DNA from: Galbibacter orientalis DSM 19592
GTDB lineage: Bacteria; Bacteroidota; Bacteroidia; Flavobacteriales; Flavobacteriaceae
Direction of reading: 5' to 3'
Assembly: GCF_000260115.1 (NCBI RefSeq)
Contig: NZ_JH651379.1
Coordinates: forward strand, 2,273,466-2,337,465
Length of the DNA: 64,000 nucleotides
Position numbers and translations under genes: made by a program. Shown piece by piece: positions 10,158 to 43,806 of the stretch. Positions within the stretch are counted from its first letter, which is position 1. Each line of letters begins with the position of its first letter. The notes below the pieces were generated by a model. It was not told where the DNA came from. It made no database searches and saw only the letters and a list, made by a program, of their open reading frames with translations.

Positions 10158-10589
10158 CTAATGCTTTGATATTATCCTCAAAAACTTATTTTTTTCATTT
10201 GACGCAGTGTATTCGGAAATTTCTTTATCGCTCATAGCCTTTATGGAAATAATCTTCATATTTTTAACAGGCTTTCCGTTTTCGTCCTTTTCTTTCCTTT
10301 TATTTATTTTTAATAGTTTCAATCTGATTTTCACAAGGTCATTAGTGACTATTTCTTCAGGTAATAACTCTAAATAAGATTTTATTTCAAGAGCTTTAGC
10401 CACTCTTGCAAACATTCTCATATTGAGTTTTTGTGGTTGTTTAGGGTTTTCTATATTCCCAAAAAAACTTTCCGAAACACCAACCTTCGCAGATAGGTCT
10501 TCTTGAGTTAAATCCTCTAAAATTCTTTTTTCTCTTAATTTTCGAATTACTTTAAAATCAAATTCGGAAATAATGATTTCAATAACCAT
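10158..10589 (-). CDS. XRE-family helix-turn-helix regulator
   Basis: The 143-residue protein has a Cro/CI-type HTH at about residues 15-75 (KLREKRILEDLTQEDLSAKV, then GVSESFFGNIENPKQ), followed by a lysine-rich C-terminal extension with no recognised domain. The SFFGNIENPK variant is typical of Bacteroidetes XRE proteins. It is transcribed away from susC, and the 822-bp non-coding region between them may contain its operators. The DNA targets are unknown. A regulatory link to the susCD operon is suggested only by position. Confidence 0.8.
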   Translation of the reverse strand: MVIEIIISEFDFKVIRKLREKRILEDLTQEDLSAKVGVSESFFGNIENPKQPQKLNMRMFARVAKALEIKSYLELLPEEIVTNDLVKIRLKLLKINKRKEKDENGKPVKNMKIISIKAMSDKEISEYTASNEKNKFLRIISKH

Positions 10590-10686
10590 ACCTTGTTAAA
10601 TTGGCATGTAAGGAATGAAATATTATAATTTTTATCACATACCTATAAGAGTGTAATAATAATTTACTATATTTGTTTATATAACA

Positions 10687-10694
10687 TATATTTG
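10687..10694 (+). promoter_or_regulatory. possible -7 element for the structured leader RNA
   Basis: TATATTTG followed by C matches the -7 consensus. A second TATATTTG lies at 10668-10675. No clear TTG is found 20 bp upstream of either. If active, transcription would start about 40 bp before the large hairpin at 10740-10846. Confidence 0.35.
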
Positions 10695-10739
10695 CAATTC
10701 TTCAAATAGAAAAATATTAGAAGCAATTGCTTTGAGTCT

Positions 10740-10846
10740 CGACTAGAAAACTGGTAATTTTTATGCAACGAGATAATAAGCAGAATGCTCACGGCCGCGG
10801 ACGTGGGCTCTCTTATTGTTGCGTGGTATACCAGTACCTCTAGTCG
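10740..10846 (+). ncRNA. candidate structured RNA: four-tier hairpin
   Basis: One 107-nt element folds into nested stems. CGACTAGA (10740-10747) pairs with TCTAGTCG (10839-10846). ACTGGTA (10750-10756) pairs with TACCAGT (10829-10835). GCAAC (10765-10769) pairs with GTTGC (10818-10822), and AATAAG (10775-10780) with CTTATT (10812-10817). GCTCACG (10787-10793) pairs with CGTGGGC (10802-10808, one G-U) around the GC-rich loop GCCGCGGA. A T run follows at 10866-10872. The pairing is far beyond chance for AT-rich intergenic DNA. I do not recognise a known RNA family; it could also act as a DNA cruciform. Confidence 0.55.
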
Positions 10847-10943
10847 ATAAGTTGAGCTCTACGTCCTTTTTTATACAGTAGTCTTTTCAACTTTTCTTAG
10901 CATTGGTTTCTTCATTTTAATTGGATTGTTGCAATTAGATAAA

Positions 10944-11025
10944 AAATAGGATGAAGCACCAACCAAAAAACTTGATTATCAAGGCGCAGTATAATGTTGC
11001 GTTTACGGTGTATTTTATCCTATTT
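10944..11025 (+). ncRNA. candidate structured RNA: branched fold
   Basis: The outer stem AAATAGGAT (10944-10952) pairs perfectly with ATCCTATTT (11017-11025). The next stem, GCACC (10956-10960), pairs with GGTGT (11007-11011). Inside it are two hairpins: CTTGAT/ATCAAG (10971-10983) and GCGCA/TGCGT (10984-11002). The result is a three-way-junction RNA of 82 nt. It lacks tRNA features (no T-loop, no CCA). It is part of the susC leader or a separate transcript. Confidence 0.45.
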
Positions 11026-11039
11026 CCTAAAAAACCAAA

Positions 11040-11371
11040 ATGTCCAATTTAGGACATTATTGTTATGGGAGTGACGATATAATTTAGGCTCAGTAGTCGC
11101 TTGCCAAAACTTATTATCAATAATAAGTGGCTAAGCGATGCGGATGCCTCGGTACTTCAATACTTTTTTCTCTCATAATTAACGACTACACATGATCATG
11201 GCATCCGGCCATGTAACGAAACGATGGTTTAGACCTTAAGGCTGTTCTTACCATAGAACCTGTCTTACCAATAATTTTATTATGGGTAATGGCTATAGGC
11301 ATATCTATGCGTAAGGGTAAGCGTGAATTTCAAAAAGACCCCTTAGAAATATAGAGAAGATAAAGGGTCTA
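11040..11371 (+). promoter_or_regulatory. hairpin cluster in the susC upstream region
   Basis: At least five further hairpins are visible: ATGTCC/GGACAT (11040-11057); a long one with TCGCTT/AAGCGA, GCCA/TGGC and CTTATTA/TAATAAG (11097-11138); CATGGC/GCCATG (11197-11213); TTACC plus ATAAT with ATTAT plus GGTAA (11265-11289); and AGACCC/GGGTCT (11336-11371). CGGATGCC (11141-11148) can also pair with GGCATCCG (11200-11207), which excludes the 11197-11213 hairpin. No protein-coding frame is convincing. An RNA leader controlling susC is plausible but unproven. Confidence 0.45.
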
Positions 11372-11411
11372 TTCTAACAAAACCGAAGTTTTATTATAAC
11401 AACTCAAAATT

Positions 11412-14400
11412 ATGCAAAAAAGATATATTATAAGAGATAAGTGTATCCTATTATTTACCCTGCTTATCTTTTCTATTGGAACGTATTCCTTGTTTGGGAA
11501 TGTCAGGGGTGTTAATTTTTTTGATTTAGCTGCTTATCAACATCGGATTAAGGGAGTGGTTACTGATTCGGACGGAACTCCGGTTCAGGGAGCTTCGGTT
11601 CGTTTAAAAGGCACTTCAACCGGAACTTTCACAAACAATGAGGGTGTCTTTTATCTGGAGGCCACTCCTACCGATGTTTTGATATTAAGCTATATCGGAT
11701 TTAAGAAACTAGAGGTTATAGTGGGAAGCTCGGAGGAACTTTCCCTTGTATTAGAGGAAGATGTGACTGATCTTGGAGCGGTGACGGTCAATGCAGGATA
11801 TTATTCTGTAAAGGAGCGAGAGCGCACTGGAAGTATTTCAAGCATCTCTGCTGCTGATATTGAAGAGCAACCCGTTACCAATGTTCTTGCTACTATGCAA
11901 GGACGAATGCCGGGAGTGTATATCACACAAGACTCGGGGGTACCTGGTAGTGGTTTTCAAATTCAGATAAGGGGGCAAAATAGCTTGCGATCGGATGGGA
12001 ATATGCCTTTGTATATTGTGGATGGTGTTCCTTTTACAACCCAGTCTATGGAGAGTTTCTATACCGGAGAGGCAGTACCTGGAATTATTAACCCTTTAAA
12101 TAATATCGACCCTACGTCCATAGCAAGTATCGAGGTGTTAAAAGATGCCGATGCTACGGCTATTTATGGCTCACGTGGAGCGAATGGGGTGGTATTAATT
12201 ACAACAAAAAAAGGAGTTGCTGGTAAAACCCGGTTTCAGATAGGATACACCTATGGATTGGGAAGGGTTGCTAATTTCATGGACCTTATGGATACCAATA
12301 CCTATCTGGAGATGAGACGGGAAGCTTATGCCAATGATGGTATAATAACATATCCTGCCAATGCTTACGATGTAAATGGAACATGGGATCAAAACCGTTA
12401 TACGGACTGGCAAGAAGTATTAATAGGGGGAACCTCTGATATTATAGATGCGACAGGTTCCGTGTCAGGGGGGAGTGAGCACACTCAATTTTTAGTGAAT
12501 GGGAATTACCATAAGGAAACCACTGTATATCCAGGAGATTATGCGTATAATAAGTTTGGACTTAACAGTAGTATCAATCACAGTACCCGTGATGAAAAGT
12601 TTAAGGTACATTTAACTGCTGGTTATACAATTCAAAATAACAACTTACCGGGGTTGTCATTTATGACAGACATCTACCAATTAGCTCCTAATGCTCCGGC
12701 ATTGTATCAGGAGGATGGGACTCTGAATTGGGAAAATAGTAGTTGGGAGAATCCATATAGTGTATTTGAAACCTCCTATGAATCAAAAACGAATAGCCTT
12801 ATATCAAATCTGTTACTTTCTTATGAACCTATTGATGGGTTGGAGTTTAAAACCAGTTTGGGTTATACTAATAATCAGTTTTTTGATCAAATGCTTCGCC
12901 CATCTACTGTATATGATCCAGCATATGAAATTACCAGTGAGTTTTCGAATGCCTACAAAAATCAGGTACATTTTAATTCTTGGATTGTCGAACCACAAGT
13001 ATCTTATAAAAAAGAATTTTCGGCATTTAAAACGCAGTTATTAGTTGGAGGGACATTTCAAAAACAAGTTTCTTCACAATTAGTGCATAGTACTAGTGGG
13101 TATGCCAGTAACAGCCTATTAGGAAATATGACTGCTGCTTCGTTTATTAATATTGCCACGGATGATCAGACTAAATATAAATACAATGCCATATTTGGAC
13201 GATTGAATACTTCCCTTTTTAATCGTTATTTTATAAACATAACAGGGAGACGAGATGGATCTTCTCGTTTTGGTCCTGGTCGCCAATTTGCCAATTTTGG
13301 TGCAATAGGTATTGCATGGTTGTTTTCAGAGGAATCCTGGTTAGAAAACTTAAATTTTTTAAGTTATGGAAAATTAAGAGCGAGCTATGGGACAACAGGA
13401 AATGATCAGATAGGTGATTATCAGTATTTGGATACGTATACCATTAGCGGAAATAGTTACAATGGAATAGCCGTTATGGAACCCTCAAGGCTTTTTAATC
13501 CTTCTTTTAGCTGGGAAGAAAACAAAAAGTTAGAGGTAGCCATGGAAACAGGATTTATAAAAGATCGACTCTTTTTAACGGTTGCTTATTTTAAGAACCG
13601 TTCTTCGAATCAGTTGGTAGGAATACCACTTCCGGGAACAACAGGTTTTTCTTCTATTCAGGCTAATTTAAATGCTACTATAGAAAATAAAGGATGGGAG
13701 TTTACATTACGTTCCGAACAATTTAAAAACGAAGATTTTTCATGGAGTACTACATTTAATCTAAGTGTTAACCGTAACCGACTGGTCTCTTTTCCAGGAT
13801 TAGAAACCTCCACCTATAGCAATAGCTATGTTATAGGAGAACCTTTAAATATCAGTAAGGTATATCAGTATGAGGGCTTGGACTCTCAAACGGGACTGTA
13901 TCAATTTAAAGATTTTAACGACGATGATTTATTAACACGTGAAAATGATCGGGAAGCTATCATACGATTTGATCCTGACTTTTTTGGTGGAATCCAAAAT
14001 AGTATTCGTTATAAAGGATTATCCGTAGACTTTCTTTTTCAATTTGTTAAACAAGATCGTTATACCGGTGAACATTCAATGGGAATGGCTGGAAGAATGG
14101 GGAATCAATTAAACCTATTACAGGATCGTTGGAAGCAACCAGGAGACATCGCAACCTTTCAGCCCTATTCTTCAGGGGCTAATTCTGAACTTAGATCAAG
14201 GTATTTGAATTATTCCCAAAGTAATGCTGTATTGGATGATGCCTCCTTTATTAGACTTAAGAACATAGCTATTTCTTATCAATTACCGAGGAATATCTTG
14301 CATGGGGTTACTTGCAGTATTGTTTTAAAGGGACAAAATCTATTGACTTTTACAGATTATGAGGGATTAGATCCAGAAGCTAATTTCACAAATAGTTTAC

Positions 14401-14444
14401 CACCATTACAAGCACTCACCACAGGGATACAACTCCATTTTTAA
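11412..14444 (+). CDS. SusC/RagA-family TonB-dependent outer-membrane transporter
   Basis: A 22-stranded barrel importer that works with the downstream SusD lipoprotein. The 1010-residue protein has an N-terminal hydrophobic signal region (about residues 12-30) and a carboxypeptidase-regulatory-like beta domain (KGVVTDSDGTPVQGASVRLK, then LSYIGFKKLEV). The plug holds VTNVLATMQGRMPGVYI, QIQIRGQNSLRSDGNMPLYI, VDGVPF and ADATAIYGSRGANGVVLITT. It ends in an aromatic barrel terminus (TGIQLHF). It is the first gene of a three-gene operon with susD and an S9 peptidase, and the peptidase partner points to a peptide rather than a glycan substrate (inference). No enzyme for polysaccharides is nearby. 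Confidence 0.93.
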   Translation: MQKRYIIRDKCILLFTLLIFSIGTYSLFGNVRGVNFFDLAAYQHRIKGVVTDSDGTPVQGASVRLKGTSTGTFTNNEGVFYLEATPTDVLILSYIGFKKLEVIVGSSEELSLVLEEDVTDLGAVTVNAGYYSVKERERTGSISSISAADIEEQPVTNVLATMQGRMPGVYITQDSGVPGSGFQIQIRGQNSLRSDGNMPLYIVDGVPFTTQSMESFYTGEAVPGIINPLNNIDPTSIASIEVLKDADATAIYGSRGANGVVLITTKKGVAGKTRFQIGYTYGLGRVANFMDLMDTNTYLEMRREAYANDGIITYPANAYDVNGTWDQNRYTDWQEVLIGGTSDIIDATGSVSGGSEHTQFLVNGNYHKETTVYPGDYAYNKFGLNSSINHSTRDEKFKVHLTAGYTIQNNNLPGLSFMTDIYQLAPNAPALYQEDGTLNWENSSWENPYSVFETSYESKTNSLISNLLLSYEPIDGLEFKTSLGYTNNQFFDQMLRPSTVYDPAYEITSEFSNAYKNQVHFNSWIVEPQVSYKKEFSAFKTQLLVGGTFQKQVSSQLVHSTSGYASNSLLGNMTAASFINIATDDQTKYKYNAIFGRLNTSLFNRYFINITGRRDGSSRFGPGRQFANFGAIGIAWLFSEESWLENLNFLSYGKLRASYGTTGNDQIGDYQYLDTYTISGNSYNGIAVMEPSRLFNPSFSWEENKKLEVAMETGFIKDRLFLTVAYFKNRSSNQLVGIPLPGTTGFSSIQANLNATIENKGWEFTLRSEQFKNEDFSWSTTFNLSVNRNRLVSFPGLETSTYSNSYVIGEPLNISKVYQYEGLDSQTGLYQFKDFNDDDLLTRENDREAIIRFDPDFFGGIQNSIRYKGLSVDFLFQFVKQDRYTGEHSMGMAGRMGNQLNLLQDRWKQPGDIATFQPYSSGANSELRSRYLNYSQSNAVLDDASFIRLKNIAISYQLPRNILHGVTCSIVLKGQNLLTFTDYEGLDPEANFTNSLPPLQALTTGIQLHF

Positions 14445-14456
14445 ATTAATAAAATC

Positions 14457-15869
14457 ATGAAAAAATATATAACAACAGTTTTAAAAAATAAAAAAACAAA
14501 TGGGAATCTTTGGTTTCGAAGCCTGCTAATATTTGTATGCTGCAGTACATTTTTGCTGTCTTGTTCAGATTTTGTGGAGGTAGAACTTCCTTCATCGCAA
14601 CTCAATGCTGATGATATCTTTACCGATATTTCTTCTGCTAATGCAGCCATGGCTTCCATATATGCTGAAATGCGTGATGGTAGTATGGTAAGTGATTTAA
14701 GTTATCAGATGGGGAATTATGCAGATGAATTGGATTATTACGGTAGTATGGCTTCTGACACCGAGGATTTTAATAAAAATACGGTAATTTCTTCCAATGG
14801 TACCATCAAAAGCTGGTGGAATACTGCCTATAATTTAATTTATAGTGCAAACTCAATTCTAGAACGTGTTGAGAATTCAAAACAACTTTCTACAAGTGAT
14901 TGCAATCAGTTAAAAGGGGAAGCTTTATTTGTAAGAGCATACCTTCATTTTTACTTGGCGCAACTTTATGGAGCAGTCCCTTATGTAACGACCACTAATT
15001 ATTCAGAGAATGCTAAGGTGGTTAAAATTCCTGTTGATCAGTTGTATTTAAATGTACTGGAGGATTTAAAAGTAGCTGAAGGCTTATTAGGTTTGGAATA
15101 TGTAAATCCAAATCGTACCCGTCCAAATAGAGGCGTAGTTAAAGCACTTATGGCAAGAATATATTTATATACAGATCAATGGGAGGCTGCTGCTCAGGCA
15201 GCTTCGTATTGCATAAACAATACAGGTACATATACATGGAACACAAATTTAAATACCTTGTTTTTAAAAGATAATACTACAACTATTTGGCAATGGTCTC
15301 CTGAATTTGAAGGACAAAACACCAATGAAGGGCAAGCTTTTATATTCTTTTCAGTACCTCCGGGAAACGTAGCCTTGAATCCTGAGCTTGTAGCCAGTTT
15401 TGAAGCTAATGATTTGAGATTGGATGGTTGGATTAAGGGATTATCGGATGGGGAAACTACTTGGTATTATGCATATAAATATAAAGAGCAAGGTGGGACG
15501 GATGTCTCAAGAGAGTATAGTGTCATTTTTCGATTGGCTGAACAATATTTGATAAGGAGCGAAGCACGTGTACAAAACGGCGACATAGAGGGAGGGGTGT
15601 CTGACCTAAATAAAATAAGAAATCGCGCAGGACTTTCCGAAGTTGGTGTTACTGATAAAGCTACCTTATTGAAACTTATCTTAGAGGAACGTAGGCATGA
15701 ATACTTTACAGAATTAGGACATCGCTTTTTTGATTTAAAGCGTATAGAACAGCTGGATACTGTTTTAGGAGTTAAACCAGGTTGGAATACAACAGACAGA
15801 ATATTACCATTACCAGAGGATGAACTCTTGATAAATCCAAATTTAGAACCGCAAAATAAAGGATATTGA
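14457..15869 (+). CDS. SusD/RagB-family nutrient-binding lipoprotein
   Basis: Surface lipoprotein that captures ligand and forms the lid over its SusC partner. The 470-residue protein has a long N-terminus ending in the lipobox LLSC at about Cys36, then the SusD fold with TPR-like helices (NLIYSANSILERVEN, LKGEALFVRAYLHFYLAQLY, and the C-terminal LRSEAR-like segment YLIRSEARVQNGDIEGGVSD). It ends with LEERRHEYFTELGHRFFDLK and LPLPEDELLINPNL, typical of the family. It begins 12 bp after susC and its stop overlaps the next start, so the three genes are one transcript. Confidence 0.93.
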   Translation: MKKYITTVLKNKKTNGNLWFRSLLIFVCCSTFLLSCSDFVEVELPSSQLNADDIFTDISSANAAMASIYAEMRDGSMVSDLSYQMGNYADELDYYGSMASDTEDFNKNTVISSNGTIKSWWNTAYNLIYSANSILERVENSKQLSTSDCNQLKGEALFVRAYLHFYLAQLYGAVPYVTTTNYSENAKVVKIPVDQLYLNVLEDLKVAEGLLGLEYVNPNRTRPNRGVVKALMARIYLYTDQWEAAAQAASYCINNTGTYTWNTNLNTLFLKDNTTTIWQWSPEFEGQNTNEGQAFIFFSVPPGNVALNPELVASFEANDLRLDGWIKGLSDGETTWYYAYKYKEQGGTDVSREYSVIFRLAEQYLIRSEARVQNGDIEGGVSDLNKIRNRAGLSEVGVTDKATLLKLILEERRHEYFTELGHRFFDLKRIEQLDTVLGVKPGWNTTDRILPLPEDELLINPNLEPQNKGY

Positions 15870-18472
15870 TGAGAAGACTAAATATAAAATCGATCAATTT
15901 CTTTCATCATAATTGCAACCTTTTATGGGGTTTAGTATGGATAGGACTTCTTTGTGTTATGCCTTTATGTGCACAAAGTAATCGTAAAACCATGACCCCA
16001 AAAGATTATGATAAATGGTATCGTTTTAACTCTTTAGGATTTGCTTCAGAGGGGAAATGGGTATTATTTAAAAAGTCTTATACAGATCAACCAGATTCAT
16101 TATTTGTAAAAGAAATAATGGGAGATAGGCTTTACGCAATTGAAGATTGCGGTCAGTTAGCTTATGTTGGAAATAAGATAGTTATTGGACATTGTGCGAA
16201 TGGGAGGTATCAAATACTACATCTGGCATCGGGAAGAATGGAAAAAATGAATGCAGATAAAGTAGAAGTAAGTTTAAATGAGGATTACCTTATGATGTAT
16301 CATAAACAAAAGAAGGAACTGATTATTAGAAATCTTTCAAATGGTAAAAACGCATTTTTTTTTAATGTTTATGACTATTCCCATAATCCAAAATCCAATG
16401 CCATTGCAATTATGAGCCGTGAATCTACAGAGAATCAACTAACCTTGATATTTTTAAACAAAACGCTTAAAGAGGTTGTCTTATTGGAGAATTCTTCTCG
16501 CAAAGTTGTCGAACTCACATGGAATGCAGCGGGAGATGGTGTGGCCTTTTCGATGGCTTCTAGTGAATCAGAAGGAGAATATGGAGATGCAGGGGAGCTA
16601 TGCTTCTATAAGATAACTAAGGAAAAGATGATGCGTATAGATTTGAACAATTGGGGTGGTTTTCCAAGTGATAAGAAGTTGGTAAGCACATGGGTTTTGC
16701 CGCTAAGGATTACCCCAGATGACAATAGGATATTATTTGCTTTTAAACGCAAACAACCTGTCGAAATGAAGGAGCTTCCAGAGGTCTGGAAAGCCGGTGA
16801 TCCATATATCTATAAAGGGATGACTTATAGGATGCATTGGCAAAATACAGCCAAGTTAGGGATATGGGATTTAAAAACCAATCGTTTTATTAAGGTTACT
16901 GATACACTTTATCCTCAGTCGCTTATTAATAAAGATGCATCTTTAGCCTTGCTGTACAATCCGGCAACTTATCAACCTCAATCCATGTCGAAGCCACCCA
17001 TTGACCTTTATATAGCAGATTTGAAAAAGGAGAGGAAAACATTGTTTTTAAAACGTCAGCTGCATGAAACATCAAAAGTTTCCTTTAGCCCCTCTGGACG
17101 TTATATTCAATACTTCAGAGAAAAGGGGTGGTGGCTTTACGATTCTAAAACAGATGTTCATGTTAATTTATGTAAGAAATTTGAAAATACTCAATTAATT
17201 GATTATGATGAATTAACTCCGTTATTATGGAGCAAAGATGAAGATGCTTTATTTATGCAGGGAAGTTACGATTTGTGGGAAGTTCCTATTGGAAATGGAG
17301 AGGTGAAGTCTTTAACGAATGGGAGGAAAAAGGGAGTTCATTATCATGTACTTACCAAGCCTACTGTTTACCAAAAACGACCTCAATCATTATATTTTAA
17401 TCGACAAACTCAATCGTTGATATTCTCTGTAAAAAAAGGGGATAGTATGGGTTATGCGATATTAAGACCGCAAAAAAAACTACAAGATATAAGTCTTAGT
17501 GAAAATTATGTTCGTGATCCATTTCTATCTGAAGATGAACGATACTTTAGTTTTAGAATGGAGCGTAACGACCAGCCCTCTAAATTAATGATTTATGACC
17601 TGAGTTCAGATCGTTTACAAACATTGTTTCAGAGCAATCCTCATTATAAGAATTATAAACAAGGGCGCTCCAAAAAGATTTTTTATCGCAATAAGGATGG
17701 TGTCTTACTCTCAGGAATTCTTCGTTTTCCGACGGACTATAAGAAGGATTCACTATATCCCATGATTGTACGTGTTTATGAAAAACAGGGATATAAGCGT
17801 TTTCAATATGTAAATCCTACCATGTACAATGGCTCAGGATTTAATAGTAAAAATTATGTTAACAATGGTTATTTTGTATTTCTACCAGATATTTCTTATA
17901 CCATAGGGGAACCTGGCTTTTCAGCAGCAGATTGTATTATATCAGGTACCAAAGCTGCATTGAAGGAAGCTTCTATTGATCCTGATAGAATTGGGTTGAT
18001 AGGACACTCATATGGAGGGTTTGAAACGTTGTTTACCATAACTCAAACTGATTTTTTTGCTACTGCTATTGCCAGTGCTGGTGTAACCGATATGGTACGG
18101 GGGTATTTAGGTCTTCAGGATCGGATTCTACTTAGTTATGATATGTATGAACATTTTCAACACCGCATGGGAGTTTCTTTATTTGAGGATTACCAAGGAT
18201 ATTTGGATAACTCTCCTATATATCATGCCACCAAAATTCATACACCTTTTTTATTGTGGTCGGGTAAAGAGGATTATCATGTGAATTACCATCAGAGTAT
18301 ATCCTTTCATTTGGCCATGAAAAGGCTAGGAAAACCAAACAGTTTACTTTTATACCCTCAAGAAGGGCACGTCCTAGGGCGTCCTGAAAGTCAAAAAGAT
18401 ATTACTATAAAGACCGAGCAATGGTTTGCATATTATTTGAAAGATGGGATAAAATACGATTGGATGCCGTAA
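15869..18472 (+). CDS. secreted S9-family (prolyl oligopeptidase-like) peptidase
   Basis: Serine peptidase of the DPP-IV/prolyl-oligopeptidase clan, probably periplasmic or surface exposed. A signal-like hydrophobic stretch (LLWGLVWIGLLCVMPLCAQ) precedes a beta-propeller region (about residues 40-560) and an alpha/beta-hydrolase domain. That domain has the nucleophile in GHSYGGFE (near residue 713), a likely Asp in SGKEDYHVNY and a likely His in PQEGHVLGRP. The ATG at 15869 overlaps the susD stop (TGATG), which indicates coupled translation. Fusion of peptide cleavage and SusCD uptake in one operon suggests processing of peptides before or during import. The substrate is unknown. Confidence 0.88.
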   Translation: MRRLNIKSINFFHHNCNLLWGLVWIGLLCVMPLCAQSNRKTMTPKDYDKWYRFNSLGFASEGKWVLFKKSYTDQPDSLFVKEIMGDRLYAIEDCGQLAYVGNKIVIGHCANGRYQILHLASGRMEKMNADKVEVSLNEDYLMMYHKQKKELIIRNLSNGKNAFFFNVYDYSHNPKSNAIAIMSRESTENQLTLIFLNKTLKEVVLLENSSRKVVELTWNAAGDGVAFSMASSESEGEYGDAGELCFYKITKEKMMRIDLNNWGGFPSDKKLVSTWVLPLRITPDDNRILFAFKRKQPVEMKELPEVWKAGDPYIYKGMTYRMHWQNTAKLGIWDLKTNRFIKVTDTLYPQSLINKDASLALLYNPATYQPQSMSKPPIDLYIADLKKERKTLFLKRQLHETSKVSFSPSGRYIQYFREKGWWLYDSKTDVHVNLCKKFENTQLIDYDELTPLLWSKDEDALFMQGSYDLWEVPIGNGEVKSLTNGRKKGVHYHVLTKPTVYQKRPQSLYFNRQTQSLIFSVKKGDSMGYAILRPQKKLQDISLSENYVRDPFLSEDERYFSFRMERNDQPSKLMIYDLSSDRLQTLFQSNPHYKNYKQGRSKKIFYRNKDGVLLSGILRFPTDYKKDSLYPMIVRVYEKQGYKRFQYVNPTMYNGSGFNSKNYVNNGYFVFLPDISYTIGEPGFSAADCIISGTKAALKEASIDPDRIGLIGHSYGGFETLFTITQTDFFATAIASAGVTDMVRGYLGLQDRILLSYDMYEHFQHRMGVSLFEDYQGYLDNSPIYHATKIHTPFLLWSGKEDYHVNYHQSISFHLAMKRLGKPNSLLLYPQEGHVLGRPESQKDITIKTEQWFAYYLKDGIKYDWMP

Positions 18473-18487
18473 GTGATGAATTAAAGT

Positions 18488-18526
18488 AAATAGGGTGGCT
18501 CATTTTAGAGCCACCCTATTTTTTTT
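18488..18526. terminator. bidirectional terminator between S9 peptidase and DUF6520 genes
   Basis: A perfect 14-bp stem AAATAGGGTGGCTC (18488-18501) with its complement (18508-18521), a 6-nt loop, and T runs on both strands. It serves the convergent plus and minus transcripts. Confidence 0.92.
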
Positions 18527-18531
18527 AGAAT

Positions 18532-18816
18532 CTATGGTTGTTCAGGTCTATAAAGTTGAACAGTACATTGATTCCCCTCTTCTAAAAATAGTGGGGTACC
18601 ATCTTCTTCATAATTGACTGTACAAATATAATCTGTTTCTACAGTTGAACAATCATCTGCTTGTTGGCATGATGTTCCTGCGGGATTTAATTTAATATGC
18701 CCCTGAACAATTGCTGCGTCTTTAGCCTTTAAACTCATTGCATGTGTTGAAAAGGCTCCGATGGTTGCTATGGCAAAAATAAAAGCCGGCAACCATTTTC
18801 TTGAAATTGTTTTCAT
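18532..18816 (-). CDS. DUF6520-type small secreted four-cysteine peptide
   Basis: The 94-residue protein begins with a signal peptide (MKTISRKWLPAFIFAIATIG, cleavage probably after STHA at about residue 26). The mature part is acidic, with four cysteines (50, 56, 65, 84) and the C-terminal motif LYRPEQP. This layout matches my memory of the flavobacterial DUF6520 family, whose function is unknown. Two disulfides are likely. The gene follows the MauE-like gene by 59 bp on the same strand, and MauE-type proteins support disulfide formation in other systems. I infer a secreted, oxidised peptide, possibly a signal, bacteriocin-like factor or carrier. The assignment is by pattern, not by alignment. 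Confidence 0.7.
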   Translation of the reverse strand: MKTISRKWLPAFIFAIATIGAFSTHAMSLKAKDAAIVQGHIKLNPAGTSCQQADDCSTVETDYICTVNYEEDGTPLFLEEGNQCTVQLYRPEQP

Positions 18817-18875
18817 ATTTTTTGTATTTAAAGTTATGATCTACTCTTTTTTACAGGTTTTCGATCTTACCCCTG

Positions 18876-20387
18876 TCATCGCGATATATTTGTATGTGTA
18901 TCTCCATGAAGCATATTTTTAAGGTCATATTGGACTAATTTATTCCCGATAAAACCATAAAAAATAGATTCCTTTATGAAAAAATGTCTTAGGGGTTTCC
19001 CTTGTTCTTTATAGATGTAAAAACTGGTTTGATAATTTCCATTTAAGATGTTGTATACATCTATTGTTTGAGTTTGCTTCCATGTCTTTTCTGCCTCATA
19101 TCTTCCTTTGATTTGAGAACGTATATATAAAAAGCCATTATAAGTATAGCTTGCAGGATTAACCATCATGGAGGCAATCAATTTTAGTTGTTGAGGATTC
19201 GATGTGGAGTCTATAATTAAGTTGGGCTTAGAAATGGTGTCAATTGTATGAGCTGTTATAATGTTGTTAAGTTTCTCACTCATTACCAAAAATTTATTTT
19301 TATAGAAATAAGTATAAGATACGTGATTAGTAAGACCATCGTATGCAATACTACCATCGGCATTAAATATTTCGTCAGACTCATTATTCAAAAGGTGCGG
19401 TACAATTTGATAGGGTAGTGAATCCTTTATATAGAGGTAGCCAAGGTCACTTTTCTGGGATTGAGGATTCAAGGTTTTAAATAGTAATGTGTTATCATTA
19501 GTTAGTTGGTAATTTGAAAAGTTGATATTACCTTGGTATTGCGAGTCTACTTCCCAATTCGTTGTAGTTCCTTTTAATATCATAGAAATTTGACCATCTA
19601 TTAAAAAGAAATAAGGAGGCTGGACTCTGACTTGAGCTGCAATGGATGGTAAATTATTATTACTGATTTGAATCTTAATGGTTTTCACAGTAGCTGTTTG
19701 TAGGTTTATTCGTTTTACAATGAGTGGACTACTATAATTTCCCAGATAAATATGTTGCTTACTTGAACCAGCAAAATAAAAAGCATCTCCGTTTAAATTT
19801 ATATTAGCAATCTTTGGAATATTATATGAGTATCGACGAATAAAAGGATTTTCTTCGTATATAATTCGCTCTGAGGTTAGAAATAACATGGTGACCGTAC
19901 CAACACTTAGAAGTGAGATTACGGAAGCTATTACATAAAAAGCATACTTGTTCTTGCTTTTAGAATCTCTTTTTTTGTGAAAATGAATGGCTAAAAGAGC
20001 AAATAAGGTAAATACTATATTAAAAATAAGGTGCGCCTTCCATCCCATTTTTTCCAGCACACCACCACAGGAACAGGGGATATTAGAAGCGTGGTTTAAA
20101 ATGATATAAATATAGGTGCTAAACATGACCATTAAGGCTAATGATGCCAACAGACCTATATAACGTGTGTTTTTATATAGAAGTAGAAGAGCCGTTAAAA
20201 TTTCAGATATAGGAACAATCCACACTAGCCAACCGGCATAGGCACTCAGCATCGGTGCTTGTCCAATTTGAATACGGAAATTTTCAAAATCCAACAGTTT
20301 AGTGAGTGCTGCATATACAAAAAGGAGTATAAACAGATAACTGATGATCTCCGTAATTAAACCTGTATGTTTTTGATACCATTTCAT
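18876..20387 (-). CDS. MauE/DoxX-type redox-associated membrane protein with large extracytoplasmic domain
   Basis: The 503-residue protein has an N-terminal four-helix membrane domain (about residues 10-135) like MauE/DoxX proteins. The signature SNIPCSCGGVLEKMGW has Cys105 and Cys107 facing the outside. A fifth membrane helix (about 150-170) follows, then about 330 residues rich in beta strands and N/Y/T, probably periplasmic and perhaps a propeller. MauE proteins help make disulfides in methylamine dehydrogenase; here the likely client is the neighbouring four-cysteine peptide (inference). The C-terminal domain is not part of classic MauE and could bind the peptide or its importer. Confidence 0.75.
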   Translation of the reverse strand: MKWYQKHTGLITEIISYLFILLFVYAALTKLLDFENFRIQIGQAPMLSAYAGWLVWIVPISEILTALLLLYKNTRYIGLLASLALMVMFSTYIYIILNHASNIPCSCGGVLEKMGWKAHLIFNIVFTLFALLAIHFHKKRDSKSKNKYAFYVIASVISLLSVGTVTMLFLTSERIIYEENPFIRRYSYNIPKIANINLNGDAFYFAGSSKQHIYLGNYSSPLIVKRINLQTATVKTIKIQISNNNLPSIAAQVRVQPPYFFLIDGQISMILKGTTTNWEVDSQYQGNINFSNYQLTNDNTLLFKTLNPQSQKSDLGYLYIKDSLPYQIVPHLLNNESDEIFNADGSIAYDGLTNHVSYTYFYKNKFLVMSEKLNNIITAHTIDTISKPNLIIDSTSNPQQLKLIASMMVNPASYTYNGFLYIRSQIKGRYEAEKTWKQTQTIDVYNILNGNYQTSFYIYKEQGKPLRHFFIKESIFYGFIGNKLVQYDLKNMLHGDTHTNISR

Positions 20388-20547
20388 ATCATTTGTATTT
20401 ATTTGGTATTAAATGCTATAAATCTGCGCACTAATGGCTCTGCCAAATAAAGGTAAATGATTATAAAAGTGGACTTTGGTGGATTTACCTTATTTTTTTA
20501 CGGTATTTCCGCATTTAACATTTTATTTAAAGGGAAAACTAGTCTTT

Positions 20548-21204
20548 TTAGATAAAACCTTCTTCTTTAGCCCTTTTAATAAGCTCTGAGCTTTTTTCTA
20601 CACCAAAGAGATCCTTAAGACGTCGTTTCCTCTTTTCTAAAGCAGATAAGGATAGTGTCATTTTTTTAGTGATCATTTTCATGGTATAAAAGCGTGAGAG
20701 CAGGTATAGCAACAGATGATTCTCTTCATCCAGCAGGTAAGTGTTAGCTCCTTGTTCGGTCAGGTATCCTACGACTGTCCTGCTGTAATATGGGGTGTTG
20801 TCTATAAGACGGTATAGGGCTGTGGTCATCTCCTTATAACACATCTCTTTTTTAATTACAAAACCCATAGGATGAAGGTTCTTGAACATGTAACGGATAT
20901 GGAAATGGTCTGTATAACTCGAAAAGATTACTACCCCAATCCTAGGGGGACGTTCATGTAACTTCTTCACCAAAGTATTCCTTGACAACCCCTCCCAATC
21001 CGTAGCGGGGAATATAAAAACATCCAGAAAAACCAAATCAATGGAACCGTCATCCATAAAGCTGAGAGCTTGCCCCAGAGTATAGGCCTTGCTTATCTGG
21101 AATTGAATCTCTTTTTCCCTTTTAACTTCACGGATTACTCTTTCAAATGTTTCCATTACATGCCAAGGAACATTAATATATAATATGTGGTAACTCTTTC
21201 TCAT
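20548..21204 (-). CDS. orphan response-regulator-like protein with C-terminal HTH
   Basis: The 218-residue protein has a receiver-like domain (residues 1-130) with the probable phosphoacceptor Asp61 in IDLVFLDVFIF, a Ser/Thr site in VVIFSSYT and the conserved Lys in GFVIKKEM. A C-terminal LuxR-like HTH follows (LLSRFYTMKMITKKMTLSLS, ALEKRKRRLKDLFGVEKSSE). The acidic pair expected after the first strand is missing (LYINVPWHV), so Mg2+ binding and phosphorylation may be weak or absent. No histidine kinase is adjacent. It lies 160 bp upstream of the MauE-like gene on the same strand and may regulate this cluster (inference). Confidence 0.72.
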   Translation of the reverse strand: MRKSYHILYINVPWHVMETFERVIREVKREKEIQFQISKAYTLGQALSFMDDGSIDLVFLDVFIFPATDWEGLSRNTLVKKLHERPPRIGVVIFSSYTDHFHIRYMFKNLHPMGFVIKKEMCYKEMTTALYRLIDNTPYYSRTVVGYLTEQGANTYLLDEENHLLLYLLSRFYTMKMITKKMTLSLSALEKRKRRLKDLFGVEKSSELIKRAKEEGFI

Positions 21205-41611: not shown

Positions 41612-41971
41612 ATGCAAAAGCTAACAAATAAAGAAGAAGAAATTATGAAGATTTTATGGAAGCTTGACAAAGCTTTTGTAAAAGAAGTTCAAGCAGAAAT
41701 AAGGGAAGATAAACCCCATTACAACACCCTTTCTACTATTATTAGAAATTTAGAAGAAAAAGGATACGTAGCACATAATGCTTTTGGAAATACACATCAA
41801 TACTACCCTATTATAAAAAAGGAAGCCTACCGAAAAAGATTTGTATCGACAGCAGTTGAAGATTATTTCAACAACTCCTATAAAAACATTGTTTCGTTTT
41901 TTGCTGATGAAAAAAAGATTAGCGTTGCAGAATTAAAAGAAATTATAGAACAAATAGAAAAAAATAACTAA
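41612..41971 (+). CDS. BlaI/MecI/CopY-family repressor
   Basis: The 119-residue winged-helix repressor starts LTNKEEEIMKILWKLDKAFV, with the recognition helix around YNTLSTIIRNLEEKGYVAHN and a C-terminal dimer region VSFFADEKKISVAELKEIIE. In the classic system it is cut when the M56 sensor is triggered. The stop overlaps the start of the M56 gene by one base (TAATG), so the pair is coupled. No beta-lactamase gene is adjacent; Bacteroidetes use such pairs for other envelope signals. Confidence 0.92.
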   Translation: MQKLTNKEEEIMKILWKLDKAFVKEVQAEIREDKPHYNTLSTIIRNLEEKGYVAHNAFGNTHQYYPIIKKEAYRKRFVSTAVEDYFNNSYKNIVSFFADEKKISVAELKEIIEQIEKNN

Positions 41972-43806
41972 TGGAAGTTTTCTTTATACATCTCATTAAA
42001 TCGTCTGGGATTTTGGTATTATTCTGGGCAGTTTACCACCTATTTTTAAAAAAAGAAACTTTTTTTAATTCAACTAGATGGTTTTTAAATTTTGGATTAA
42101 TTGCCTCCATCGTTATCCCTTTTATTTATTTTAAAACTATAAATATTATTGAAGTTCCTACAACCACTCCTACTTCTCTACCTACAATAACAAATGAAAC
42201 AGCACAAGAAATTTCTGTAGCCAGTAAATTACTAACTTATGCTTTCTATGGATATCTATTAGGAATATTATTTTTTAGCACTAAGCTATTAATTCAATTA
42301 GCTTCATTATATCGGTTTATAAAAAAAGGAACTCTCAAGAAAGGTAATTTTAACTATGTGCTAACAAACGAAAATATGAGTCCGTTTTCATTCTTCAACT
42401 ATATAGTTTACAATCCAAACATATATAAAGAGAAGGAATTAGAAGCCATTCTAACCCATGAGCAAATTCATGCAAAGCAGCACCATTCTATTGATGTTAT
42501 TTTTCTTCATATATACACCATTGTATTCTGGATAAACCCAATTGCTTGGTTGTATAAAAAGGAACACACTCAAAACTTAGAGTATATAACAGATCTACAT
42601 ACTTCTAATAAACTCAATACCCAAAAAGAATATCAATATTTACTATTGAAGCAATTAAACGGAATGCAATATTCCATCATCAATCCATTTTATAATTCAT
42701 TAATCAAAAAACGAATCGTTATGTTACAAAAACAAAAATCACACAAAAAGAACCTTTGGAAGTACAGTTTAATCCTCCCGTTATTAGCTGGTTTTATGAT
42801 GCTTTTTAGCTTTAAAACAGTTACTAAGTTTAATCATTTAAATGAAAACACTACCAATCAATACGTAATTACAAAACAAACAACAGATAATGAGCTTGAA
42901 GAATTAAAAAATAAAGTCCAAAAACAGGGCAATAAATTAATCTATAGTAATCTTAAACGTAATTCGTCTGGATTAATAAAAAATATTAAGATTAAGTATA
43001 TTGTAGGAAGCATAAAAGCAGGACCAACGGAATTCAGTAAAGAAGAAGGGATTGGTAATTTATATTTCGGAACAAACAACAACACTGTTTATTTAGATAT
43101 TGAAAAGTCCACAGACAATAACCTACTAACAGAACAGCCCAAAAGCAAACAATTAAATGATCCTATGTATGTGGTAGACGGTAAAATAATGCCGAAAGAT
43201 TTTGATGTAAAGTCAATTGACCCAGAAAGTATTTATAGCATGAATGTTATAAAAGGAGAGAGTGCTATTGAAAAATACGGTGAAAAAGGTAGAAATGGAG
43301 TTGTAGAAATATTCTTAAAAGTTAGTGACCAAATAAACTTAAACAGTAGTGATAGTAAAAATAGTTTTAAAATATCTTCAACTACAATAGATCAAAAAGA
43401 AAAGCCACTTTATGTTTTAGATGGCAAAATTCTCCATGAAGATTTTGATATAAATACGATTGATCCTTCCACAATTAATCATATTAATGTACTCAAAGAT
43501 GCTAAAGCTACTAAAAAATATGGAGATGAAGGTAAAAATGGAGTAATTGAGATTGTTTTGGAAACTAATACTAGTGAAGCAAAGAATAAAAGTACTTCAA
43601 TTCAATTTAAAAAAATTGACCCCAATCAATTAATTATCCTTGATGGAAAAGAAATAAGTCATGAAGAATACTCCAAAATAGATCGAGAAGAAATTAGAGC
43701 TTTTATCATTCTTAAAGATGGAGATGCCGTTGAAAAATATGGTGAAAAAGGTAAAAATGGAGTAATAATAATTCAAACTAAAGGAAGTTCAAAAAATAGT
43801 TTTTAA
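41971..43806 (+). CDS. BlaR1-like M56 peptidase with three TonB-plug-like modules
   Basis: The 611-residue membrane protein has four N-terminal helices (about 5-25, 35-53, 85-110, 260-285) and the zinc motif HEQIH (163-167) of the M56 family. After the last helix the extracytoplasmic part contains three tandem modules at about 398-450, 478-535 and 553-608. Each has a (Y/I)xLDGK-like start, an IDP or IDRE step, an (I/V)LKD or VIKGE segment and a KYGxxGKNGV(V/I)EI end, the form found in TonB-dependent receptor plug domains. The modules probably sense or bind a periplasmic signal. The substrate is presumed to be the BlaI-type repressor. Confidence 0.85.
   Translation: MEVFFIHLIKSSGILVLFWAVYHLFLKKETFFNSTRWFLNFGLIASIVIPFIYFKTINIIEVPTTTPTSLPTITNETAQEISVASKLLTYAFYGYLLGILFFSTKLLIQLASLYRFIKKGTLKKGNFNYVLTNENMSPFSFFNYIVYNPNIYKEKELEAILTHEQIHAKQHHSIDVIFLHIYTIVFWINPIAWLYKKEHTQNLEYITDLHTSNKLNTQKEYQYLLLKQLNGMQYSIINPFYNSLIKKRIVMLQKQKSHKKNLWKYSLILPLLAGFMMLFSFKTVTKFNHLNENTTNQYVITKQTTDNELEELKNKVQKQGNKLIYSNLKRNSSGLIKNIKIKYIVGSIKAGPTEFSKEEGIGNLYFGTNNNTVYLDIEKSTDNNLLTEQPKSKQLNDPMYVVDGKIMPKDFDVKSIDPESIYSMNVIKGESAIEKYGEKGRNGVVEIFLKVSDQINLNSSDSKNSFKISSTTIDQKEKPLYVLDGKILHEDFDINTIDPSTINHINVLKDAKATKKYGDEGKNGVIEIVLETNTSEAKNKSTSIQFKKIDPNQLIILDGKEISHEEYSKIDREEIRAFIILKDGDAVEKYGEKGKNGVIIIQTKGSSKNSF

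Follow-up and report, generated by a model that had tools for sequence, protein, structure and literature searches.

The window analysed here is a stretch of 64,000 nt from Galbibacter orientalis DSM 19592 (contig NZ_JH651379.1, positions 2,273,466 to 2,337,465). Open reading frame analysis and Pfam and NCBIfam profile scans confirmed every gene and coordinate that the initial annotation had given for positions 10158–21204 of the window, which contain the following features:

10158..10589, minus strand: Cro/C1-type HTH regulator (HTH_3, 23.4 bits, cut-off 23)
11412..14444, plus strand: SusC/RagA-type TonB-linked outer-membrane transporter (TIGR04056, 707.6 bits, cut-off 368, E 3e-212; TIGR04057, E 5e-17)
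14457..15869, plus strand: SusD/RagB-type lipoprotein lid (PF14322, E 9e-31; PF07980, E 3e-19; both above cut-off)
15866..18472, plus strand: exported S9 (prolyl-oligopeptidase family) peptidase (PF00326, 98.4 bits, cut-off 22.6, E 5e-28)
18488..18521, either strand: hairpin terminator with a 14-pair stem, between the convergent transcripts
18532..18816, minus strand: DUF6520 small signal-peptide protein with four cysteines (PF20130, 25.9 bits, cut-off 25.4)
18876..20387, minus strand: MauE domain (CSCGG) with a fifth TM helix and a beta-propeller-like domain (PF07291, 110.1 bits, cut-off 27, E 1e-31)
20548..21204, minus strand: degenerate response-regulator-like protein, optional (PF00072, 20.2 bits, E 7e-4, below the cut-off of 30.2)

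The HTH gene, which the initial annotation had left undescribed, is the first of the interval and lies divergently upstream of the SusC gene, while the S9 reading frame is listed with a TTG start, followed by an ATG at 15869 that overlaps the SusD stop codon. The DUF6520 protein passed the PF20130 cut-off only just (copy B of the locus scored 37.2 bits) and had no NCBIfam match, and the NCBIfam scan of the window proteins gave only 9.5 bits for the BT_3928 family (NF045576, cut-off 250). The terminator had been proposed to serve both transcripts, and its stem was indeed reported for both strands; on the minus strand the T tail is far weaker. A perfect stem of at least 8 pairs was present in 52/71 of the relatives' convergent gaps, versus 1.1% of letter shuffles.

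The same set of genes is found in Flavobacteriaceae and some related bacteria; one such locus (L161) belongs to Flavobacterium johnsoniae strain CI04. The proposal that these genes belong together had named their linkage beforehand as the test that could refute it, and the linkage held in searches anchored on two different genes. The MauE-anchored set consisted of 80 loci in named genomes, the best 80 of 577, with seeds taken from module loci; 79 of these 80 had a complete four-cysteine DUF6520-type gene, and the remaining one was interrupted by a contig end. The order MauE, DUF6520 → ← S9, SusD, SusC was conserved in 68 of the 71 loci with enough sequence (best 80 of 577), and the peptide gene lay between MauE and S9 in all 68 loci with this exact convergent order. 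With S9 as the anchor, 299 family genomes yielded 15 matches in 10 genomes, all 15 in module loci (4 of them already known through other searches), and 16/16 places above the PF20130 cut-off fell in module loci. Four below-cut-off matches (L094, L095, L096 and L207), which covered at most 44 profile positions and lay outside modules, were left out. The arrangement is thus more than chance, since it recurs in the window's own genome, which has three copies of the module, and in other genomes. The five module proteins also co-diversify (Mantel r 0.69–0.92, 0/500 permutations as high), with SusD following SusC most closely (r 0.92, and 0.87 on distant pairs); the peptide gave r 0.72 with SusC (0.49 on distant pairs) and 0.79 with each of MauE and S9, figures that carry the noisier distances of a short protein. 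Mobility genes were located within about 10 kb of the module in 48/80 loci (best 80 of 577), and a search for plasmid carriage gave no PLSDB match for the window MauE at E 1e-20. Taken together, the small cysteine-bearing signal-peptide protein, the MauE-type membrane protein, their own importer pair and either a peptidase or a thioredoxin look like one conserved, often mobile unit.

SusD-type genes are common in the window's genome (34 PF14322 matches at E ≤ 0.001), which could suggest that this SusCD pair is of the usual glycan type and has its neighbours by chance. However, no glycan enzyme was present among the seven window proteins scanned, as had been stated originally, so that the locus does not qualify as a polysaccharide utilisation locus; furthermore, the SusDs of the module group into two clades of their own (support for the clade of the window SusD 100/99). 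With the linkage (68/71 in the best 80 of 577, and 15/15) the chance-neighbour part is already contradicted, and we consider the glycan reading as a whole scarcely credible.

The third gene of the plus-strand set had been described as a processing enzyme, which was borne out, with the enzyme family varying between loci. The window S9 peptidase has the triad Ser715, Asp803 and His835, and this Ser-Asp-His triad was intact in 72/72 S9 homologues of >700 aa, including those of the window and copy B. Across the loci this slot is occupied by S9, M16, a met-zincin, S8 (subtilase) plus thioredoxin, or thioredoxin. The varying enzyme fits dismantling of a peptide, since proteolysis and disulfide reduction both take apart a disulfide-bonded peptide. 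A small cysteine-rich protein adjoining an exported protease could instead inhibit or activate that protease, but the protease is swapped for unrelated families, and in the eight thioredoxin-type loci SusCD adjoins a thioredoxin-like protein, with no match to S9 or M16 proteins, the two peptidase types sought, making such a regulator very unlikely. Lasso peptide loci also combine a peptide, a TonB-dependent receptor and an S9-type isopeptidase, and resemble the module in this respect, but the window S9 scored far below the cut-off of the lasso peptide isopeptidase family (NF033523, 95.4 versus 400 bits), and no lasso maturation gene was detected among the module proteins scanned with Pfam and NCBIfam.

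The CSCGG motif occupies residues 105–109 of the window MauE protein, and PCxC was present in 80/80 MauE proteins (best 80 of 577; one of the two search patterns requires the motif). An AlphaFold2 model of the long MauE protein (pLDDT 82, pTM 0.79) matched propellers in the PDB, the first being 3s9j (DUF4221, E 3.6e-10, TM 0.40 on the query), and the protein is predicted to include a beta-propeller-like domain. Next to this conserved PCxC, the cysteines of the peptide proved conserved: all four were invariant in the 77 aligned peptidase-type DUF6520 members, an alignment that omits ten two-cysteine members, rows nearly identical to others and, from locus L138, two of its five copies, one of which has six cysteines. 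Both copy C, which combines an M16 peptidase with a two-cysteine peptide, and the thioredoxin-type loci belong to the two-cysteine type. A single peptide copy is the rule, and six loci have several, mostly diverged copies next to a single importer: L138 has five, L206 three, and L119, L124, L140 and L162 two each. The mature part is predicted to form a small beta fold (pLDDT ~88, versus 74 for the whole protein) for which a PDB search found no match (best E 5.9). It diverges fast, with a mean identity of 0.29 versus 0.56 for SusC. A RiPP-like conserved leader was rejected, as the leader identity of 0.42 is not special next to that of signal-like N-termini of SusC (0.38), SusD (0.27) and S9 (0.22; 38, 40 and 36 sequences passing a crude filter, respectively).

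The mature peptides have a median net charge of 0 (range -9 to 5), which does not fit a cationic membrane-active peptide. This bears on the possibility of a bacteriocin that harms rivals and is cleared by its producer via SusCD and the peptidase or thioredoxin, for which the mobility genes near 48/80 loci (best 80 of 577), the patchy presence (10/299 genomes) and the tandem peptide variants would speak. We consider it improbable, as the net charge is ≤0 in 46/77 peptides, an importer would be an odd immunity device, and most loci have just one peptide copy.

The export signal of the DUF6520 protein is Sec-like only, and neither an exporter nor an outer-membrane sorting signal was found for it, with no sorting domain in the Pfam or NCBIfam scan. 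A Sec substrate of the ordinary kind would remain periplasmic. The main rival explanation is that SusCD imports foreign peptides which the peptidase degrades, and that the DUF6520 protein is a small periplasmic protein which serves MauE, the peptidase or SusCD as a redox relay, a chaperone or a plug. The Sec-like signal and the near-zero charge are consistent with such an accessory, as are the thioredoxin-type partners in other lineages and the position of the MauE and DUF6520 genes as same-strand neighbours that diverge together (r 0.79). The fast divergence of the mature part and the six loci with several, mostly diverged copies would be unusual for a fixed subunit, and we regard this explanation as possible, if on the unlikely side.

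Regulatory genes are variable members of the module. The Cro/C1-type HTH gene is a recurring optional member: of the 62 loci that extend >2 kb past SusC, 10 have a homologue at the corresponding divergent position, four of them only at E 1.8e-4 to 2.9e-4. Calling the response regulator degenerate was fair, as the sequence, on inspection, lacks the N-terminal acidic pair and keeps the FLD, S and K positions; a 31% identical relative near copy C does pass PF00072. The orphan response regulator did not prove to be a constant partner, and it was rejected as a fixed part: a relative was located just upstream of MauE in only 1/76 loci, versus an AraC-type protein in 27/76 and neither of these in 48/76. 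There is no constant regulator in the module.

Several known systems share parts of this arrangement. RagAB of Porphyromonas gingivalis, a SusCD-type importer of gingipain-made peptides (PMC11817032), likewise places a SusC/SusD-type pair in a peptide-related setting, but the available excerpt of that source mentions neither a DUF6520 peptide nor a MauE partner. MauE/MauD homologues adjoin cysteine-rich precursors in Streptomyces RiPP candidates (decRiPPter, PMC7794033), and the same source calls the role of MauE in disulfide formation speculated. These candidates and the methylamine-utilisation MauE/MauD share with the module a MauE homologue by a small cysteine-rich protein and, in some lineages, a thioredoxin-like partner. 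The module MauE differs in its linkage to SusCD and a peptidase and in often carrying a fused beta-propeller-like domain, and the Streptomyces precursors have at least 8 cysteines, unlike the module peptides. NVEALA (PF14055) peptides of other Bacteroidia, for which a literature search found no publication, are also small signal-peptide proteins, many with cysteines, and lie close to beta-propeller proteins of the 6-bladed type (all four neighbours scanned passed the cut-off of PF15869 or PF17170), but four NVEALA stretches had no match to any module model, and the window's genome had no NVEALA match.

We propose, with a probability of about 40%, that the locus is a mobile self-contained module whose core is an exported, disulfide-stabilised miniprotein, and which also supplies the importer for its putative re-import and the enzyme that would dismantle it. 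The DUF6520 protein would be exported through Sec, and the MauE-propeller protein, with its CSCGG loop and propeller placed in the periplasm, would oxidise or hold it. A product of roughly 60 residues would arrive at the surface or in the medium, alone or with a ligand, and the module's own SusCD pair would retrieve the peptide, or the peptide with its ligand, after which the peptidase, or thioredoxin in other lineages, would dismantle it. The disulfides, release, re-import and processing of the peptide, as well as its purpose, are what we infer. This is our preferred explanation because of the gene linkage, the separate SusD clades, the conserved cysteines, the intact catalytic residues, the changing processing enzyme and the co-diversification; it is supported by the tandem peptide copies adjoining a single importer, and by the RagAB and Streptomyces precedents. 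It is weakened by the lack of an exporter or sorting signal, by the peptide tracking SusC less than SusD does and tracking MauE and S9 slightly better, by the two cysteines instead of four in copy C and the thioredoxin-type loci, and by the absence of a constant regulator. A more specific version, which we regard as doubtful, is an autocrine peptide loop that spreads horizontally in Bacteroidota, with the miniprotein released, recognised by its own SusCD and dismantled inside; the miniprotein might carry a scarce ligand, or it might be a pheromone that the neighbouring AraC-, response-regulator- or HTH-type regulators sense, partly to the benefit of conjugative elements.

The module places a MauE-type protein beside small cysteine-bearing exported proteins in Bacteroidota, as in the Streptomyces RiPP candidates (PMC7794033). 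DUF6520, for which our literature search found no publication, gains a defined gene module, and a group of SusCD importers likely gains a non-glycan task. We know of no secrete-and-recapture peptide system in Bacteroidota, and if the peptide is the cargo, this module would represent one.

The interval at 10158-21204 of the window carries the following genes, in this order:

HTH gene, minus strand
susC, susD and S9 peptidase genes, plus strand
DUF6520 gene, MauE gene (503 residues) and response-regulator-like gene, minus strand

The plus-strand susC-susD-S9 transcript is convergent with the minus-strand set, and a 14-pair hairpin separates the two. Every main gene passed the curated family cut-off, DUF6520 barely so, and the response-regulator-like gene, which is degenerate, scored below that of its family. 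Elsewhere in the window (41971-43806), behind a BlaI-like gene, lies the gene for a 611-residue protein that joins a BlaR1 M56 peptidase domain to a Plug segment of the TonB-receptor type; both scored over cut-off, and we judged the fusion odd.

A survey seeded with nine long MauE proteins (set A2) gave at least 577 related places in named genomes, of which the best 80 were analysed; since every seed came from a module locus, this survey shows how constant the module type is, and not how large a part of all MauE proteins belongs to it. In these and all other fetched loci, genes were called mechanically as ORFs and then scored with HMMs that had themselves been derived from this module type. 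Among the 71 of these best 80 of 577 loci with >8.2 kb downstream, S9, SusD and SusC were convergent in 68, which bears out the linkage of DUF6520, MauE, S9 and SusCD proposed in the initial annotation; the exceptions were an S9 fragment (L128) and two loci with SusCD lacking S9 and with the peptide gene upstream of MauE (L129, L133). The peptide gene lay between MauE and S9 in all 68 convergent loci (67 by filter, L116 by HMM). This filter, which demands four Cys by design, was passed by 78 of the best 80 of 577; the L116 peptide likewise has four Cys, and at L164 the contig ends within the peptide gene, whose start is visible. An HMM of DUF6520, constructed from ten members found earlier, matched all 85 filtered peptides. 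Two of the 80 loci (L157 and L135) share DNA with seed loci, and the peptide of L157 (Flavobacterium sinopsychrotolerans) is identical to that of L079.

Searching 299 genomes of the family with the window S9 (E 1e-80, with no more than three candidates per genome scored) yielded 15 matches in 10 genomes, two being from the window's genome and two already known from another (G065). Neither of the two other same-genus genomes listed had a match. SusD, DUF6520 and MauE flank 14 of the 15, and the fifteenth (L196) forms part of a wider locus (L206), where S9 and SusCD are accompanied by a split MauE, a thioredoxin and three DUF6520 genes. The SusC of this three-peptide locus (L206:3044-17021) has a long N-terminal extension, STN-like by reading, with no Pfam match to the extension. 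DUF6520 itself was matched in 18 of 395 Bacteroidia genomes, at 23 listed places (two from the window's genome). All 16 places over cut-off were in loci with MauE and SusCD, as were three of the seven below it (L091, L092 and L093); the other four (L094, L095, L096 and L207) were not. The partner beside SusD or SusC was S9 in seven of the fetched loci. In L077 it was a met-zincin (DUF4953, DUF5117) and in L089 an S8 subtilase together with a thioredoxin-like protein; all eight others (L086, L090, L091, L092, L078, L084, L087 and L093) had a thioredoxin-like protein there.

Four Cys are invariant in 77 aligned peptidase-type DUF6520 members (75 with exactly four, 2 with five), spaced by 5-10, 7-8 and 11-21 residues, with 7-11 residues beyond the last. 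In 71 of the 77 the C-terminal part fits Cys-x(2-4)-[LVIY]-[YFWTKN]-[RKHV], a pattern picked after viewing the alignment. Two-Cys forms occur in copy C (a further module copy in the window's genome), L089 and eight thioredoxin-type loci. An AlphaFold2 model has four strands (pLDDT ~88 in the mature part, 74 overall; pTM 0.50), and Foldseek gave no PDB match below E 5.9. Six loci have multiple peptide copies, namely five in L138 (two with near-identical mature parts), three in L206 and two each in L119, L124, L140 and L162. Runs of NVEALA-type small proteins with 6-bladed beta-propeller proteins (L189, L190 and L192) are a possible analogue without SusCD.

The window lies on contig C1, and its 4.5 Mb genome has two further module copies. 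Copy B (L042) has SusC, SusD, S9, DUF6520 and MauE in the identical convergent order, and adjoins genes for a type IV coupling protein and a DUF5712 protein. In copy C (L043), the MauE is short and the DUF6520 gene encodes two Cys; these two genes are convergent on M16 peptidase, SusD and SusC. A histidine kinase accompanies a response-regulator relative ~13 kb away. Also beside copy C (L043:253-8575 and L053:6641-10083), a GLPGLI-like gene is paired three times with a gene for a large outer-membrane protein; a scan of one pair put PF09697 over cut-off and CarbopepD_reg_2 slightly short of it, the rest being named by reading alone. Nine PF07291 matches were found in this genome, five over cut-off: three in the window, copy B and copy C loci, L007 (the weakest), and L044, where no module model matched within the 12 kb searched. 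With 34 PF14322 and 25 PF00326 matches, the genome has the majority of its SusD-type and S9-type genes outside module loci.

Mobility-gene clusters, named after their representative sequences, were present within ~10 kb in 48 of the best 80 of 577 MauE-survey loci (relaxase in 27, coupling protein 20, NikA/MobC 14, MobC_2 8, RteC 11, integrase 12), or in 41 of the 80 when integrase is left out of the count. As a rough yardstick, taken from the window's genome alone (three PF03432 matches, none inside the window), PF03432 is expected in ~1% of random 20 kb stretches; the mobility neighbours of copy B indicate that PF03432 misses some mobility loci. An 808-residue aminotransferase-type gene (PF00155; L151:5924-8350), which recurs in 13 of the best 80 of 577, is perhaps a mobile-element passenger.

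The module SusDs formed two clades in a 59-row SusD tree, one of the peptidase type plus L089 (24 rows, 22 different; support 100/99) and one of the thioredoxin type (8 rows; 100/100), with none of 27 other SusDs from the window's genome inside either. The tree left out four weak PF14322 matches, drew on just 10 of the 80 loci from the MauE survey, and has long branches on several non-module rows. Pairwise protein distances correlate across the 68 complete loci, as shared descent alone would also give; the nearest relative by SusC was also nearest by peptide in 39/68 loci and by SusD in 47/68. Four of six same-genome locus pairs differ as much as an average pair does (SusC identity 0.53-0.58 against a mean of 0.56), which fits horizontal spread for most; the other two are closer (0.66 and 0.84). 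Hairpins with a stem of at least 8 were found in 52 of 71 convergent gaps, versus 1.1% of letter shuffles.

The model of the window MauE shows, besides the MauE helices, a long fifth helix and a domain rich in beta structure that matches propellers (top match DUF4221 of Bacteroides vulgatus); our positive-inside-rule reading would place its CSCGG loop and propeller in the periplasm. The halves are encoded as separate genes in L077, L089, L151 and L206. One paper (PMC7794033) describes MauE or MauD homologues near precursors with at least eight Cys, and terms the role of MauE in disulfide formation speculated. The conserved Cys, the MauE partner and the exchange of peptidase for thioredoxin point to a disulfide-bonded peptide that would be made and then taken apart. 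Such a peptide may act as a periplasmic accessory, the main rival reading, which we rate somewhat below recapture; the presence of an importer in the module makes re-uptake attractive, and RagAB is given in PMC11817032 as a SusCD-type pair able to carry peptides. We tentatively favour, at a probability of about 40%, recapture of the peptide, in which a putatively released miniprotein would be brought back by its own SusCD and dismantled by the peptidase or thioredoxin.
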